From: Candidatus Avelusimicrobium pullicaecorum
GTDB taxonomy: Bacteria > Elusimicrobiota > Elusimicrobia > Elusimicrobiales > Elusimicrobiaceae
DNA: 64,000 bases
Assembly: GCA_944322825.1 (NCBI GenBank)
Contig: CALUQD010000003.1
Coordinates: forward strand, 1-64,000
Direction: 5' to 3'
The notes beneath the pieces are model-generated. The model was not told where the DNA came from. It saw only the letters and a list, made by a program, of their open reading frames with translations, and searched no databases. Positions 54,457-61,880 of the stretch are shown here, in pieces (the stretch's first letter is position 1; every line of letters begins with the position of its first letter). The position numbers and the translations under genes were made by a program.

Positions 54457-55587
54457 ATGAAAACATTTTTAAAAATTGTTCTATTTTTGGTCTTGTTAGC
54501 GGGCTTGTGTGTATTTGCTTTTTACAAAACCCCAGCTCAGCGTTCTTTTGAAAAAACCCTCTCCGCGGCGGTGGCAGGGGATAATCAAGCCGCCAGCCAA
54601 GTGGCCCGAATGTATGCCCAGGGGCAGGGCACGGCGGCGGACGGCAATCAAGCGGCCGAGTGGTACCGCAAAGCCGCGGCGGACGGCAATATGCAGGCCG
54701 CGTGGGAGCTGGCGCAGCTCTATATCCAGGGGCAGCTTGTCGCGCAGGATTTGGATGAAGCGGCGGTTTACTTGCAAGCGGCCGCCCGCGGGGGCGTGGT
54801 AAACGCGCAAAAAGAATTAGCCCGTTTTTACCAACAAGGGTTGGGGGGGCTCACCACGCAGCCGGGGGAAGCCTTGTATTGGCAAATTCAAGCCGCCAAT
54901 GCCGGCGACGAAGAAGCCCAAACCACCGTGCAAGATGTACAGTTAGAAAATCCGCAGTTGTATGAAGAAGTTACCCGCTTTATCGGGGTTTTAACCCGCG
55001 CACAAGAGGGCAACAGCCAAGCCCAGTTGGAAGCGGGGCAAGGCTTGCATATGGGTTATCCGCTGGCACGGGATGACGAGGAGGCTTTCCGTTGGTTTAC
55101 ACAAGCCTGGCAGAAAGGAGATAAACTGCCGCAGGCCGCGTACGAACTTTCGCAATTGTACCAAAAAGGCGAAGGAACCGAAAAAGACGAAGCCAAAGCG
55201 ATGGAACTGTTGGGCACGGCCGCACAGGCCAAAAACCCGGATGCCCAATATATGCTGGGTACCTTGTCTTACGGCGGCAACCCGCCGAACTACCAAGACG
55301 CCTTTGCCTGGTTTTCCAATGCCGCCGCCGGCGGGCAGGCGCAAGGGCAGTATATGACGGGCTTTATGCTGATGCAAGGACAGGGAACGCCGAAATCGGT
55401 TCCGTTGGCGATCCGGTTTTTCCACGATGCGGCCGAACAAAACTATACTGCGGCCCAGTATGTGCTGGGGCAAATCTATTGGAAAGGTTTAGGCGTGCCT
55501 GTAAACAAAAAAGAAGGCGAAACGTGGCTCCGCCGCGCCGCAGAAAATGGAAACAACGCGGCGCAGGAATTATTAAATGCCCAATAA
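54457..55587 (+). CDS. Sel1-repeat protein, membrane-anchored or exported
   Basis: The 376-residue protein has an N-terminal hydrophobic helix (FLKIVLFLVLLAGLCVFAFY) and about eight Sel1-like repeats (for example ASQVARMYAQGQGTAADGNQAAEWYRKAAADGNMQAA and AQYMLGTLSYGGNPPNYQDAFAWFSNAAAGG). Sel1 proteins are helical scaffolds for protein-protein contacts, probably in the periplasm here. It lies just before the terminator that faces the four-protease array. Partner unknown. Confidence 0.88.
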   Translation: MKTFLKIVLFLVLLAGLCVFAFYKTPAQRSFEKTLSAAVAGDNQAASQVARMYAQGQGTAADGNQAAEWYRKAAADGNMQAAWELAQLYIQGQLVAQDLDEAAVYLQAAARGGVVNAQKELARFYQQGLGGLTTQPGEALYWQIQAANAGDEEAQTTVQDVQLENPQLYEEVTRFIGVLTRAQEGNSQAQLEAGQGLHMGYPLARDDEEAFRWFTQAWQKGDKLPQAAYELSQLYQKGEGTEKDEAKAMELLGTAAQAKNPDAQYMLGTLSYGGNPPNYQDAFAWFSNAAAGGQAQGQYMTGFMLMQGQGTPKSVPLAIRFFHDAAEQNYTAAQYVLGQIYWKGLGVPVNKKEGETWLRRAAENGNNAAQELLNAQ

Positions 55588-55607
55588 ATAAATGGTTACG
55601 TTAAACA

Positions 55608-55635
55608 CCCCGGTGTTTGCAACACCGGGGTTTTT
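55608..55635 (+). terminator. Terminator between the Sel1 gene and the protease array
   Basis: CCCCGGTGTT and AACACCGGGG form a perfect 10-bp stem with a 3-nt loop, followed by T5 on the plus strand. It may also stop the converging protease operon. Confidence 0.85.
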
Positions 55636-55639
55636 GTAG

Positions 55640-56851
55640 TTAGTCGTCGTCTGCTTTTTTGAGAAAGGTGTGATTGACTTCACCCGTTGGCAAATGGACG
55701 GTAAGCAATTCTTTTTGTTCTACGCCGGCGCCGATTTCTTCCGGCCCGCCGCGAATGATGATCAAGGAAAAATCTGTGACGTTATCCAGCGGGAGCAAGG
55801 TTTCCAAATGTTGGTAGTCGACGGCTTTTTCATCGTGCCACAACAGCCGCTTCCCAGCGGGTTTCCCGTTGTTTGTGGTAACCACCGCCGCGATGTATTC
55901 ATCCAGCCGAATGGTGCCGATAGCCCGCCCGGACAAAACCAAATCGTACGTTTTTATTTCACCGCGCTGGGCCGATTCCAGCAGGTCCGTCAAAAGACCG
56001 ACGGGGATAGCGTAACTCTCCTGTTTGTGGACGGAACTGCCGCAATGCACGCCGACCACTTCGTTTTGTTCGTTTATCAGCGGCCCGCCGCACGCGCCGG
56101 CGCGTGCCAGGTTGCCAAATTCAAATGAAGTGATCACCCGCCCCGGGGTAGTTTCGCGAACCGTGCGGTTGGGCACGATGCGAAAATCCCCGTGGAAAAA
56201 CCCGTAAGAGCGCAGTTTTTCGCCTACAGCCGGGGGCTGGGTGGCCAGTTTAAGCGGCTGGATATACGGCGCCGCATTTGTCGGTACATCCAACAACGCC
56301 ACATCCGCGCGGCCCATCGTGCCGGAGGTGATAAATTTTACGGGGAAGTGTTTTTCTTCGCCGGAAGGCAGGCGCAGAAAAATATACAAATTATCATACA
56401 TTATGTCTTGTGCGTGCGCTACCGTTACCCCCAGCAAACGTTTTTTTCCGTGCCAATCGGCCTCTATAAAGAAGACCGAAGCATTCGTCGGAATGAACGC
56501 GGAAATGGCCGGATTTTCCAGCCGCGCCACGGTTTGCAGTAAATGGGCGTCCAAGGCGGCCGGGGTCTCCACAGCCACTCGGAGAGAAGAGGGCAAAAGG
56601 CGGCTCTTTTTAGCCGTGTGCGGGCGGACGCCGGGCGCCTGCGGCGCCGGCCGCTGTGACGAGGCGGCAAACAGCCGAAAGTCCTTTATAGCTTGTGCCA
56701 CGCGGCGCTGTAAGCCGGTTATTTTTATTGGCGCGCGTTTCGTTTTGACGAGCGCGGATTTAAAATGCAAAGGCAGCTTGCGCTGGGCGTGTGCAGACAC
56801 CGAAAAACACAGACAAAAAGAAAGACTCAACAAAAAAACACGTATAGACAT
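55640..56851 (-). CDS. Secreted trypsin-fold protein with Cys nucleophile, paralogue D
   Basis: The 403-residue product has a signal peptide (FLLSLSFCLCFSVSAHAQ), a basic N-terminal region, a chymotrypsin-like domain at about 120-290 and an unrecognised C-terminal domain. Triad candidates are H146 (GVTVAHAQD), D183 (GRADVALLDVP) and C254 (AGACGGPLIN), where Ser proteases have GxSGGP. Downstream GVHCGS resembles the GxH substrate-pocket motif of viral 3C proteases, which makes D the most 3C-like of the four. It is the last gene of the array, five bases after paralogue C. Substrate unknown. Confidence 0.82.
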   Translation of the reverse strand: MSIRVFLLSLSFCLCFSVSAHAQRKLPLHFKSALVKTKRAPIKITGLQRRVAQAIKDFRLFAASSQRPAPQAPGVRPHTAKKSRLLPSSLRVAVETPAALDAHLLQTVARLENPAISAFIPTNASVFFIEADWHGKKRLLGVTVAHAQDIMYDNLYIFLRLPSGEEKHFPVKFITSGTMGRADVALLDVPTNAAPYIQPLKLATQPPAVGEKLRSYGFFHGDFRIVPNRTVRETTPGRVITSFEFGNLARAGACGGPLINEQNEVVGVHCGSSVHKQESYAIPVGLLTDLLESAQRGEIKTYDLVLSGRAIGTIRLDEYIAAVVTTNNGKPAGKRLLWHDEKAVDYQHLETLLPLDNVTDFSLIIIRGGPEEIGAGVEQKELLTVHLPTGEVNHTFLKKADDD

Positions 56852-56856
56852 AGCTT

Positions 56857-58041
56857 TTATTGCCGCACAAGAACTTGGTGCGTATCCATATGCAGTTCAT
56901 ACCAGTAAGTGCGGCGTTTTTGGGAGGAACGGTCCCCCTGGCGGATGATGATTCGGAACACATCGTGCGGCTGTATATCAAAAAAATGTTCCAGGCGTTT
57001 GTAATCCATAAACGGATAGGCGGGGATGGATTTGACGAGCCTGTCGTTGCGGATTTGCTCGATGGCGCGGATGCTTTCATCCGGGTGCAGCACCCCGATG
57101 GGACGGCCTTTGAATTTCAGCACGGTCCCTTGCGGTTGTGTGCTTTGTTTTATTATTTTGCGCACCCACGTAATAGGTATGGCGTAGTTGAACGAATTGA
57201 TTTGGACGGATAAATGGGGAAATAACGCGGAATACCAAGCGCTTTTTCGGGCCGTTTCCGAGGTTATGACGCCGGCAAAAACGCCCACTACTTTGCCGTT
57301 GGAAAGGAGCGGCGAACCACAGTATCCGCTGCGGATGGGGGAATCTTGGTAGCGCGTTAAAATGCGGTGCGTACTGGAAAAAAAGACTTGAATGCGCGGA
57401 AACCAACCAAAATTTCCGTGCGAAAATCCGGCCGATTGCACCGATGACCGGGCCGCCGGCAGCCGGTAATCCGGCACCAGCGGCGTAAGGCGCGGCTGCA
57501 CCTGCGGCGGAATGCGAAAAACCGCAATATCGGCCCCGTGGATATTGCCTTCCCGTACGGAATTTACTTGAAAGAAAATTTCCTTGCCTTTTTGGTCCGG
57601 TATGGATAAATACGGCGCGCGGCCGATATCATCCAACACGTGCCGGGCGGTTACGCCCCACATTTCTCCGTCGATAAGCACGGCAAAGGCCGAGCCCTTC
57701 CCTTTTGCGCCCGGCACCGCTTGCAGCGTAAATACGGCGCGCTGGATGGCTTTTGGCGCCGGCTGCAGGGGCCGCGTCGAAACGGGTTGTGTTATGGGAG
57801 AAAACAGCATTCCCATGTGCGCCGTCGGGTGGGACGAAAAAGCCTTAGCAGGCAGAGAAGCCTTGGACAAAATGCGGTACAGCTGCGGAAATTTAACGGG
57901 CGGGAGTTTGACCGGTTTATGAAACGAAGTAAGCGATTTGAGCCATTTGGGGAAATTCTTTTGCGCGTAAGCTGGCGACCAACTTCCGTTGGACGCCAGC
58001 AGACAGAAGCAAAGCAAACAAGTTCCCCCTGTTTTTTTCAT
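56857..58041 (-). CDS. Secreted trypsin-fold protein with Cys nucleophile, paralogue C
   Basis: This 394-residue protein has a signal peptide ending near AYAQ (residue 27), a protease-like domain from about residue 100 and a C-terminal domain containing IGVLHPDESIRAIEQI. Triad candidates are H134 (GVTARHVLD), D171 (GADIAVFRIP) and C241 (SGYCGSPLLSNGKVVGV). Its start codon overlaps the stop of paralogue B (TAATG), so translation is coupled. Catalytic residues look complete, but activity is unproven. Confidence 0.82.
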   Translation of the reverse strand: MKKTGGTCLLCFCLLASNGSWSPAYAQKNFPKWLKSLTSFHKPVKLPPVKFPQLYRILSKASLPAKAFSSHPTAHMGMLFSPITQPVSTRPLQPAPKAIQRAVFTLQAVPGAKGKGSAFAVLIDGEMWGVTARHVLDDIGRAPYLSIPDQKGKEIFFQVNSVREGNIHGADIAVFRIPPQVQPRLTPLVPDYRLPAARSSVQSAGFSHGNFGWFPRIQVFFSSTHRILTRYQDSPIRSGYCGSPLLSNGKVVGVFAGVITSETARKSAWYSALFPHLSVQINSFNYAIPITWVRKIIKQSTQPQGTVLKFKGRPIGVLHPDESIRAIEQIRNDRLVKSIPAYPFMDYKRLEHFFDIQPHDVFRIIIRQGDRSSQKRRTYWYELHMDTHQVLVRQ

Positions 58042-59264
58042 TACCAGGAATCCTTTTTTTCCACTTCTCGTGTGAATAAGTTTATCAAATATACATACGT
58101 TTGCGCACGGCCTTTGTTCACCACAATTTCCGCTTGGAGAGCTCCCGGGAGTGAAAAGGGTTTTTCCAAAAAAGTTAACTGCATAAAGGGGTTGCGCATC
58201 AAACGGAAATACTTGCCATTGGCATACCGAACGGTGACGCTTTCTATAAATTCGTCGGGGGCCAGCTGCCCGACGCGGATGCCGTTAAACCACATCGTCC
58301 GCGCCGCCTGGTCCGGATGGCGGTAGACGTTAAGCAAATCGTAGGCGCGGGAAATCGGCACAATTTCGCTGATGCGGGACAAATCTTCCTGGGGTAAAAA
58401 GTCCAATTTCTGGCGGAGCTGATACCACTGCTGCCCTTCTTTTTGGGGCGAGTAACCGCCGACTTCAATCCCCACGGCCTGCCCCTGCGCATTGAGCACC
58501 AAACTGCCGCAAAAACCGGGGCGCGGCTGGCTGGTGGACGGGAAATTGGCTACCACCCGTTCGTCGCCGGAAAACAACACGTGACGGAATGTTTTTTTGT
58601 AAGTGCCCGCACTGAAACCAAAGGTAAACAACGGGTCCCCCGGCTTTGGGGCCTGGGTGGAGGCGATGACCGGGAGGGCTACTTCGGCCACTTCCGGCGG
58701 CAGTTTAATCAGGGCGGCGTTTAAGCCATATTTGCGCCCGGTGAGTACGATTTCGGCCGGATAGGTGTATTCTTTCCCGTCGGAATAGAAAGTTACATTT
58801 ACATCCTTGCCCATATAGCGCACCACGTGGGCGCCCGATACGCCCCATAAAACGGTCTTGTCGCCTTGTTTTTCGGCAATGACGAAGCCGCTTCCTTTAA
58901 AGGGGTCCTGGACGCCGCGCTGTGAAACGGTGAAAATAAAATGACGAACATACTGTTCTACCGGGGTGAGCTCGGGCTGGCGGAAAAGAGGTTGTTGCAC
59001 TTTTATTTTGCTCGCCACCGCCCGGGAGAAAGAGAGCGCTCTTTCCGGGGACATATGCGGATCTTTAAAAGGCGGCAGCTGGGCGGTTCCCGCCGTGAGC
59101 AGTTTTGCAGAAAACTTAGGTTTCCCCAAAGGAGGAAGACTTTTTTTGATGCTGTTGCTCAGGAAGGCTTTTCCGGCGCGCACCAATTTGTTCTGCGCCC
59201 AGAGTCCGTTTGGCGACAAGAGCGCCAAACTTAATACACACAACGTGATATAATTTTTGTTCAT
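58041..59264 (-). CDS. Secreted trypsin-fold protein, Cys nucleophile but Asp missing, paralogue B
   Basis: The 407-residue protein has a signal peptide (ITLCVLSLALLSPNGLWAQ), a protease-like domain with H146 (VSGAHVV) and C252 (RPGFCGSLVLNAQGQAVGI), and a C-terminal domain with VGQLAPDEFIESVTV. The catalytic Asp position reads GLNAALIKLP (N182), where the paralogues have D. It may be a weakened or inactive protease, or may use a Cys-His dyad. It starts six bases after paralogue A. Confidence 0.8.
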   Translation of the reverse strand: MNKNYITLCVLSLALLSPNGLWAQNKLVRAGKAFLSNSIKKSLPPLGKPKFSAKLLTAGTAQLPPFKDPHMSPERALSFSRAVASKIKVQQPLFRQPELTPVEQYVRHFIFTVSQRGVQDPFKGSGFVIAEKQGDKTVLWGVSGAHVVRYMGKDVNVTFYSDGKEYTYPAEIVLTGRKYGLNAALIKLPPEVAEVALPVIASTQAPKPGDPLFTFGFSAGTYKKTFRHVLFSGDERVVANFPSTSQPRPGFCGSLVLNAQGQAVGIEVGGYSPQKEGQQWYQLRQKLDFLPQEDLSRISEIVPISRAYDLLNVYRHPDQAARTMWFNGIRVGQLAPDEFIESVTVRYANGKYFRLMRNPFMQLTFLEKPFSLPGALQAEIVVNKGRAQTYVYLINLFTREVEKKDSW

Positions 59265-59270
59265 AACTGT

Positions 59271-60488
59271 TTACCAACGAATGGGTTGATATTCGAAAGT
59301 ATCTTGCTCCTTATTATAAATTAAATAGCGAAAGGGGTTGTCCATATTAAATTCCATCGGTTTGTTTCCGCGGTCTTCCAGCATAAAACGCAAAAAATGC
59401 GTATCCGGCAGTGTCAGCAAAGCCAGCATAGTCGATTGCGGAAGGCGGTTTTGCGTATCGTATTTGCCGATAGTTTGGCGTTGTGCGTTTAATGCTTCCA
59501 CCGAATGGATATGTTCGGTGGTTTTAATGTCGCCTAACTTAATGGAACCAGCCACCAGGGGAATATCCGCACTGCCTTTGTGTTGGGCTTCCAGCAAGTA
59601 TGACAATACGTTTGTATTGGCGGCAAAAGCTACATCTGCCTCCCAAATGCTGCCGCAGTAGATGCCGGCTACTTCGCCCTGGGCATTGATAAGCGGCGAG
59701 CCGCACAGACCAGCGCGGTTTTTGAGAGGAACGAAAAAATCCGTGCGTAAGAAACGGGAATTATCTTTTTGCAAATGTTGTTTGCCGGTGTAAATAAAGC
59801 GGTGGTTGCTGTATCCGCCCGCAATAAAGGCTTCCCCGGTTTTGGCCGGCGCGTCGGACAAGGGCAGCGGTACAATTTCCGGCGGCAGGTTTTCCGGCAG
59901 TTTCAGCAGGGCCAGGTCAGAAATCATATTCGGCCCATATTGCACGACTTTGGCCGGGAGGACGATCTTTTTATCGCCTTCATAAAACACCAGGGTTAAT
60001 TGCTGCCCCATCCCCTTGGCAATATGTGCGGCTGTCGCGCCCCAAATTTCTTCTTTGCCGTTATAAGTGGTCTTAAAAATAAAGGCGGTTGCCACCGGCT
60101 GTTGGTGTTCGGGCTGGTCTTTTAACAGGACAGACTGCAGTTTGGCGATAGACAGGCGCAAATCTTTGGCGGGCTCGGCGGATGTTTTTTGGGCCGCGGC
60201 CGAAAAAACGATTCTGTCCACCTGGGGCATTTCGTCTGTGTTGCCCCGGGCGTTGGATAAAAGGTTTTGAAGGGTTCCCGTGTGCAGCCCTGCCGTGGGG
60301 CGTACGGCGGGGAGCGACGGCAGCTTCGGCGTGCGCAGCCCCGGCAAATGCGGTGTAGACAAGGATTTTTCCAACACGGCTTTGGCCGCCTGGCGGACGG
60401 GCAGTTGTTGGGCGCAGACGCGGCCCGCGGGACAAACCGCCGCGGACAACGTGAGCTCCAGCGAATACACACAAAGGGACCGTTTCAT
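59271..60488 (-). CDS. Secreted trypsin-fold protein with Cys nucleophile, paralogue A
   Basis: The 405-residue product begins with a signal-peptide-like segment ending near VCAQ (residue 27). The protease domain (about 130-300) has H155 (GATAAHIAKG), D191 (ISDLALLKLP) and C262 (RAGLCGSPLINAQGEVAGIYCGS); the C-terminal domain follows. It is the first gene of the four-gene operon. There is no clear Shine-Dalgarno; TAGAGT lies six bases before the ATG. Similarity among A-D in the motif regions marks them as tandem duplicates that have since diverged. Confidence 0.82.
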   Translation of the reverse strand: MKRSLCVYSLELTLSAAVCPAGRVCAQQLPVRQAAKAVLEKSLSTPHLPGLRTPKLPSLPAVRPTAGLHTGTLQNLLSNARGNTDEMPQVDRIVFSAAAQKTSAEPAKDLRLSIAKLQSVLLKDQPEHQQPVATAFIFKTTYNGKEEIWGATAAHIAKGMGQQLTLVFYEGDKKIVLPAKVVQYGPNMISDLALLKLPENLPPEIVPLPLSDAPAKTGEAFIAGGYSNHRFIYTGKQHLQKDNSRFLRTDFFVPLKNRAGLCGSPLINAQGEVAGIYCGSIWEADVAFAANTNVLSYLLEAQHKGSADIPLVAGSIKLGDIKTTEHIHSVEALNAQRQTIGKYDTQNRLPQSTMLALLTLPDTHFLRFMLEDRGNKPMEFNMDNPFRYLIYNKEQDTFEYQPIRW

Positions 60489-60552: not shown

Positions 60553-60605
60553 TTGGTCCTATGAGCTCTGGGACCAAAAAACCCCGCGGAGGCTGTCCCG
60601 CGGGG
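60553..60605 (-). terminator. Terminator after glyA plus an adjacent inverted repeat
   Basis: CCCCGCGG (60582-60589) and CCGCGGGG (60598-60605) form the terminator stem, followed in the minus direction by TTTTTTGG. A second inverted repeat, TTTGGTCC / GGACCAAA (60553-60579), lies just beyond it. Confidence 0.85.
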
Positions 60606-60623
60606 CGATACAGAACATTCGTT

Positions 60624-61871
60624 TTATTGCAAAGAAGGATAAAGCGGGAAACGCGCCAAAAACGCTTTGACCTGCTCGGCAATGTGCGCCAGGTACGCGT
60701 CGTCCTGCGCGTGGGAGATGGCGTCGTCGATAAACGCGGCGATTTGGGCCATATCGGCTTCTTTCATTCCGCGCGTGGTGACGGCGGGCGTCCCTAGCCG
60801 CAGCCCGCTGGTGACGAACGGTTTTTCCGGGTCAAACGGGATGGTGTTTTTGTTGGCGGTGATGCCGGCTTTGTCCAGTGCGGCTTCGGCCGCCTTGCCG
60901 GTGAGTCCTTTGGAGCGCAAGTCGATACACATCACGTGGCAGTCCGTCCCGCCGGCTACCAAACGATAGCCGCGGGCCGTTAATTGTTTGGCCAGTTCCT
61001 GGGCGTTTAACTTGATTTGGTGTTGGTACGCTTTAAATTCGGGTTTTAAGGCTTCGCCAAAGCAGACGGCTTTGCCCGCGATGACGTGCATCAGCGGGCC
61101 GCCTTGCGTGCCGGGGAACACAGCCGAATTGATGGCTTTGGCCAACGGTTCTTTGCACAAGATAAGCCCGCCGCGCGGTCCGCGCAGCGTTTTGTGCGTG
61201 GTGGTGGTGACGACGTCCGCATACGGGAACGGATTGGGGTATTCGCCCGCGGCGATGAGCCCGGCGTAGTGGGCTACGTCGCACGCAAGGTATGCCCCGC
61301 ACGAGTCCGCAATTTCGCGCAATCGCTTCCAGTCAAACACGCGCGAATAGTTGGACGCGCCCGCCATAATGAGTTTCGGCTTGTGTTCCACGGCCAGCTT
61401 GGCGGCTTCGTCGTAGTCGATTTCTTCGGTGTCGGGGCGGACGTTCATGGCGATGATGTTATACAACTTGCCGGAAAAATTCATCGGGTGTCCGTGCGTT
61501 AAGTGCCCGCCGTGGGAAAGGTTCAGCCCCAGTACGGTGTCCCCGGGCTGCAATAAGGCAAAATACACGGCCATATTGGCCTGCGCGCCGGAATGCGGCT
61601 GCACGTTGGCGTGTTCGGCGTGAAAGAGTTGTTTGGCGCGGTCGATGGCGAGTTGTTCCACCTCGTCTACAAACTCACACCCGCCGTAATAGCGTTTGCC
61701 GGGGTAGCCTTCGGCATATTTGTTGGTCAGCACAGACCCTTGGGCTTGCATTACGGCCAAAGAGGTAAAATTTTCCGAAGCAATCAGTTCCAATTTTTCG
61801 CGTTGGCGGGCCAGTTCTTTGGCTACTGAAGCAAAAACGGCCGGGTCGGTTTTTTGAAGGTCAGGATACAT
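60624..61871 (-). CDS. glyA: Serine hydroxymethyltransferase
   Basis: GlyA interconverts serine and glycine with tetrahydrofolate. The 415-residue PLP enzyme has ASENFTS, the family N-terminal segment [33 protein letters not shown] and the PLP lysine in [16 protein letters not shown] (K227). I start at MYPDLQK (61871), with AAGGAG eight bases upstream; the in-frame GTG three codons earlier abuts that site. It diverges from the DHS-like gene. Confidence 0.96.
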
Positions 61872-61880
61872 ACAAGGCAC

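Follow-up and report, generated by a model that had tools for sequence, protein, structure and literature searches.

A tandem array of predicted exported trypsin-fold proteins with cysteine at the nucleophile position in Candidatus Avelusimicrobium pullicaecorum

Introduction

Does the trypsin fold with a cysteine nucleophile exist as a cellular protein family, and if so, from what does it derive? This question is raised by four adjacent genes, here called A to D, which occupy positions 55640-60488 on the minus strand of a 64,000-nucleotide stretch of Candidatus Avelusimicrobium pullicaecorum DNA (contig CALUQD010000003.1 of assembly GCA_944322825.1; this whole stretch is called the window). 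An earlier note on this DNA described them as secreted trypsin-fold proteins in which Cys replaces the catalytic Ser, stating that PA-clan cysteine peptidases are known mainly from viruses and that chromosomal bacterial arrays of them with signal peptides are not known to have been described. The literature agrees with the first statement, as it lists families of this type from positive-strand RNA viruses only (PMC6524800). As for the second, we found no published description of a bacterial PA-clan cysteine family in the open-access literature, which does not prove that none exists. In this work we conclude, from sequence and model comparisons, that A-D are probably exported PA-clan cysteine endopeptidases, with catalysis predicted, belonging to a large family of the Elusimicrobiaceae with HtrA-type serine protease ancestry.

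Results

Gene A (59271..60488, 405 amino acids) encodes a trypsin-fold protein with a putative H155/D191/C262 triad, gene B (58041..59264, 407 amino acids) has H146/N182/C252, with Asn instead of the acid, gene C (56857..58041, 394 amino acids) has H134/D171/C241 and gene D (55640..56851, 403 amino acids) has H146/D183/C254; all four are on the minus strand. A and B are separated by 6 base pairs, B and C overlap by 1 base pair, and C and D are separated by 5 base pairs. The nucleophile-position Cys is encoded by TGC in A (59703..59705), B (58509..58511) and D (56090..56092) and by TGT in C (57319..57321), and the catalytic-position His by codons 60024..60026 in A, 58827..58829 in B, 57640..57642 in C and 56414..56416 in D, all on the minus strand. 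Re-derivation gave exactly the coordinates and gaps of the earlier note, and reproduced its Cys numbering and its count of His in four proteins and Asp in three.

All four proteins match Pfam Trypsin_2 (PF13365), A, B and D above the curated cut-off of 27.6 bits and C below it (22.7 bits). An AlphaFold2 model of D, built from a 38-sequence alignment, has a predicted local distance difference test score (pLDDT) of 83.5, above 90 in the protease core, and a Foldseek search of the PDB with this model returned Deg/HtrA proteins as top matches (DegS protease domain, TMt 0.80). These results bear out the trypsin fold, that is, the chymotrypsin double barrel of the PA clan; the structural check proposed in the earlier note, carried out for D, thus upheld the fold, but the best relatives are HtrA/Deg and not 3C proteases. 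Profile alignments superpose the His, Asp and Cys of the family on the His, Asp and Ser of HtrA proteins (the genome's own HtrA and Deg2), at the homologous positions of the PA clan, B lacking the Asp. Within the family the protease domain is better conserved than the N-terminal part. No PDZ domain was detected in A-D by the Pfam search. The C-terminal all-beta domain of D (residues 297-403; 55643..55963, minus strand), found across the family, was predicted separately with a pLDDT of 90 and seven strands, and a PDB structural search with it gave no match at E<=0.001; by the tests made this domain is not a PDZ domain, and A-D lack this hallmark of HtrA proteins.

A cysteine that acts as nucleophile should not vary freely among homologues. 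In an alignment of 170 members of the family, collected from genomes of the same genus, the Cys is kept in 159, the His in 160, the Asp in 152 and the complete His-Asp-Cys triad in 148, and no member (0/170) has an intact His-Asp-Ser triad; the claim that Cys is the nucleophile thus survives, and the Ser that characterizes the HtrA family (S1C) is replaced in A-D and in these 159 relatives, too many for the cysteine to be a chance occurrence. A sequencing error or a recoding event was rejected, as the four genes use separate TGC or TGT codons, which the earlier note had already held against such an error, the family as a whole uses 142 TGC and 17 TGT, and HtrA-like proteins of the same genome use Ser.

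The loss of the Cys is linked to that of the His. Every Cys-bearing member with a residue at the His position has His (158/158, one further member being gapped), and His is missing in 9 of the 11 members that lack the Cys. Replacements for Cys are A, H, W, Y, N, Q, M and R, plus one S in a member also devoid of His. Since Fisher tests ignore relatedness, this co-loss was weighed by counting loss events: about four Cys losses are found on the tree, three of them accompanied by His loss, the exception having kept His with Ala at the Cys position. Such joint loss is expected of a catalytic pair and not of a structural cysteine. Both residues are lost in the pseudo-enzymes L063, L065, L066, L067, L069, L070, L115 and L117, which belong to at least two lineages.

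The existence of members without Cys, His or Asp could also mean that the whole family is dead, the Cys being an inherited neutral change in proteins that act as binders or scaffolds. However, the dead members are confined to a few distinct lineages, and, with a pairwise identity of about 20%, hardly any columns are invariant, those of the His, the Cys and the Gly beside it being among them (the representatives compared were chosen with a triad, and the full set of 170 gives the same picture). A family of pseudo-proteases is consequently improbable.

The Cys is the sole cysteine of the mature chain in 81 of the 159 Cys-bearing members, and the next most common Cys column is filled in 22%. Searches of 41 genomes of the genus revealed neither DsbB nor VKOR, whereas control genomes yielded both families; this suggests that the standard disulfide-forming system is missing in these gut bacteria. 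The single-Cys members, together with this negative result, make an exported free thiol plausible and a disulfide role for the Cys unlikely. A structural function, in a disulfide or as a lipidation site, could be envisaged for the D-type members, which have a second Cys nearby (GxHC), but the position is distant from the N terminus and the members with no other Cys largely refute this idea, which we consider very improbable.

The paralogues differ in their putative S1 pocket. At the position equivalent to His213, an S1 element common to Glu- and Gln-specific proteases (PMC5508998), the ortholog groups have His (D, 9/9), Phe (C, 10/12), Glu (B, 10/11) and His (A, 5/7), the four proteins of the window having Tyr in A, Glu in B, Phe in C and His in D. 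With respect to the S1 site of glutamyl endopeptidases (His213 and Ser/Thr190), D alone of the four has the His213 equivalent, the placement of residue 190 being unreliable; D is predicted from this residue to cleave after Glu or Gln. In the B ortholog group, Asn replaces Asp in 9/9 Cys-bearing members, and the Cys is lost in two B relatives from two genomes, so B may be a weak enzyme, inactive, or a pseudo-enzyme partner. These differences in S1 residues, and the lack of a catalytic Asp throughout the B group, make A-D look specialised.

Asn in place of the acid in nearly the whole B group, and a C-terminal domain with no PDB match, could also be accommodated if the family consisted of non-proteolytic thiol enzymes or binders, the Cys-His pair and the fold being kept for another acyl transfer (transpeptidase, deamidase or esterase) or for ligand or metal binding. 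MamO is reported to be a repurposed trypsin-like protein of this sort in bacteria, and so offers a precedent (PMC4794232). Against this stand the 148 of 170 members in which a complete triad is combined with a G-x-C-G oxyanion-type motif, and the variation of S1-pocket residues between paralogues, as peptidases would show. We regard a non-proteolytic function as an unlikely alternative, yet one that deserves consideration.

Homologue searches covered the phylum Elusimicrobiota. Family matches were found in 63 of 101 related genomes, the strongest within the phylum being confined to the family Elusimicrobiaceae, and the copy number in same-genus genomes ranges from none to 13. The window's genome has three further paralogues, every one with GxCG, and two HtrA-like proteins that retain Ser. 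Metagenome genomes under the names uncultured Elusimicrobiales and Elusimicrobia bacterium UBA1436 are its close relatives, and in 8/8 named relatives the array, of 2 to 4 copies, lies between the same flanking genes. Identity is mostly 81-99% for the conserved flanking genes (68-83% for the Sel1-type neighbour) and about 30-73% for the array proteins; such rapid divergence, together with the changes in copy number, would suit targets that vary. This synteny and the predicted export signals support the chromosomal operon encoding signal peptides that the earlier note had described.

Upstream of gene A lies a serine hydroxymethyltransferase-like gene (glyA; 60624..61880, minus strand), and downstream of D a convergent gene for a Sel1/TPR-like repeat protein (54457..55587, plus strand), these two conserved neighbours being named from sequence alone. 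A consensus scan identified a terminator-like hairpin of 10 pairs followed by a T run in the interval from glyA to gene A (60581..60606, minus strand), and another, of 11 pairs, between D and the Sel1-type gene (55607..55631); the latter was scored on the plus strand, and we infer that it also serves gene D. The presence of terminator-like hairpins on both sides of the array suggests that A-D form a single transcription unit of their own.

Related modules occur in much larger reading frames. In the sister genus Elusimicrobium, genome G118 has one module in a 1371-amino-acid frame and several copies in a 3968-amino-acid frame with many hydrophobic segments, and genome G119 has a 5734-amino-acid frame with five His-Asp-Cys modules amid receiver-like, HAD-like and helical-repeat regions (labels read from sequence). 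Giant frames of this genus with several Cys PA modules are found at L215 (G118:C1:728000-747000), L217 (G119:C6:38000-57900), L216, L221 and L222, and in the window's own genus two complete Cys modules are fused in a 782-amino-acid frame (L168, G015:C8). The layout of the giant frames looks polyprotein-like, which suggests that these proteins may process themselves. One could go further and propose that the Cys-PA module plays in bacteria the part of viral 3C and cuts the Elusimicrobium giants into working parts, as in a cellular polyprotein, and that the UBA1436-type arrays are a split or parallel form of this system, but the proposal is speculative and improbable.

A tree of protease domains joins the Cys domains from the genus with those of the Elusimicrobium giants and of genome G297 (support 0.80), in a cluster that also contains family members devoid of the Cys. 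The Cys domain of G130, from another genus, groups with a Ser protein, unlike all other Cys domains, and a second Ser-to-Cys change, in the G130 lineage, is possible. The domain concerned is part of a 1775-amino-acid frame (L219, G130:C113; motif TGNCGGPV, grouped with a Ser domain). In G297, from another family of the phylum, a Cys PA domain with the motif GTCGAA lies beside a low-molecular-weight phosphatase-like domain in a 3451-amino-acid frame (L220, G297:C179).

The GxCG and GxHxG motifs, and weak profile matches to 3C proteases limited to the motif, could point to an acquired viral 3C-type protease. The best structural and sequence matches are nevertheless HtrA/Deg and S1B proteins, and searches of viral contigs, phages and plasmids returned no family relatives. 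For Pfam Peptidase_C3, D alone scores, at 13.1 bits, under the cut-off of 22; PHROG 9683 'protease' weakly matches A (E 2e-4) and C (E 3e-7), and a search of phage records gave nothing significant. The locus is chromosomal and syntenic in the 8 relatives, unlike a gene coded in the polyprotein of a positive-strand RNA virus. A phage, plasmid or virus origin was rejected on the lack of relatives among such sequences, and viral acquisition is scarcely credible. Because the resemblance to 3C is restricted to the motif, it is treated as convergence. The '3C-protease-like' label of the earlier note therefore holds for the GxCG motif and as a name for the chemistry, and fails for descent. The position of the Cys in the PA fold is that of a PA-clan cysteine peptidase, for which catalysis is predicted.

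Discussion

This work shows that a cellular Cys variant of the trypsin fold exists and is well conserved; its likely mechanism, predicted here, is that of a cysteine peptidase. In the model that we favour, an HtrA-type bacterial serine protease would have undergone a Ser-to-Cys change, fixed since. Each protein would begin with a signal peptide, followed by a linker or pro-region that is rich in Pro and variable, a protease domain of the double-barrel type, and a C-terminal beta domain, peculiar to the family, that replaces PDZ. With TEV protease chemistry as a model (PMC9647873), the His would be the base that activates the Cys, which would attack the peptide bond as in 3C and TEV proteases, the thiol being kept free by the anoxic gut and by the absence of a detectable disulfide-forming system. 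The pockets would be specialised, with His in D at the S1 position of Glu/Gln-specific enzymes, Phe in C and Glu in B, and B, deprived of the acid, may have weak activity or serve as a pseudo-enzyme partner. The targets are presumably located outside the cytoplasm, among host, diet or rival proteins, and would be changing.

Several points weigh against this model. The B group has no catalytic acid. The export of A-D was predicted solely from a hydrophobic N terminus and an AxAQ-like site, the occurrence of the family was assessed within the phylum only, and the key profile alignments were built from the family members themselves. Finally, the tree was calculated from about 170 columns and has modest support at some nodes.

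If our model is correct, these proteins would be a new class of exported gut-bacterial peptidases, probably insensitive to serine-protease inhibitors, and a possible source of sequence-specific, TEV-like cysteine proteases for biotechnology. A sizeable clade of cellular proteins in which the Cys is fixed would make it possible to ask how and why a trypsin fold swaps its nucleophile, with a limited set of serine outgroups and natural dead members for comparison.

Three known systems can be compared with the family. HtrA/Deg proteins (MEROPS S1C; DegS, Deg2; PF13365), its best Foldseek and profile matches, are likewise exported bacterial proteins with a double beta-barrel and the His-Asp-nucleophile order, whereas the family has Cys for Ser, an unrelated C-terminal beta domain, no PDZ found, and tandem fast-evolving copies. 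The S1B glutamyl endopeptidases and Spl proteases (V8, SplB) share a G-S-P motif with many members and a G-(I/V)-H S1 pocket with the D-type ones, and SplB aligns with the family; however, they have a Ser nucleophile and lack the family C-terminal domain, and His213 is found in only some of the family paralogues. Viral 3C and 3C-like proteases and potyvirus NIa (MEROPS C3, C4, C30, C37) have in common with the family the PA fold, the Cys in GxCG and, for many members, GxHxG, but the family is chromosomal, carries predicted export signals, and is closer to bacterial serine proteases.
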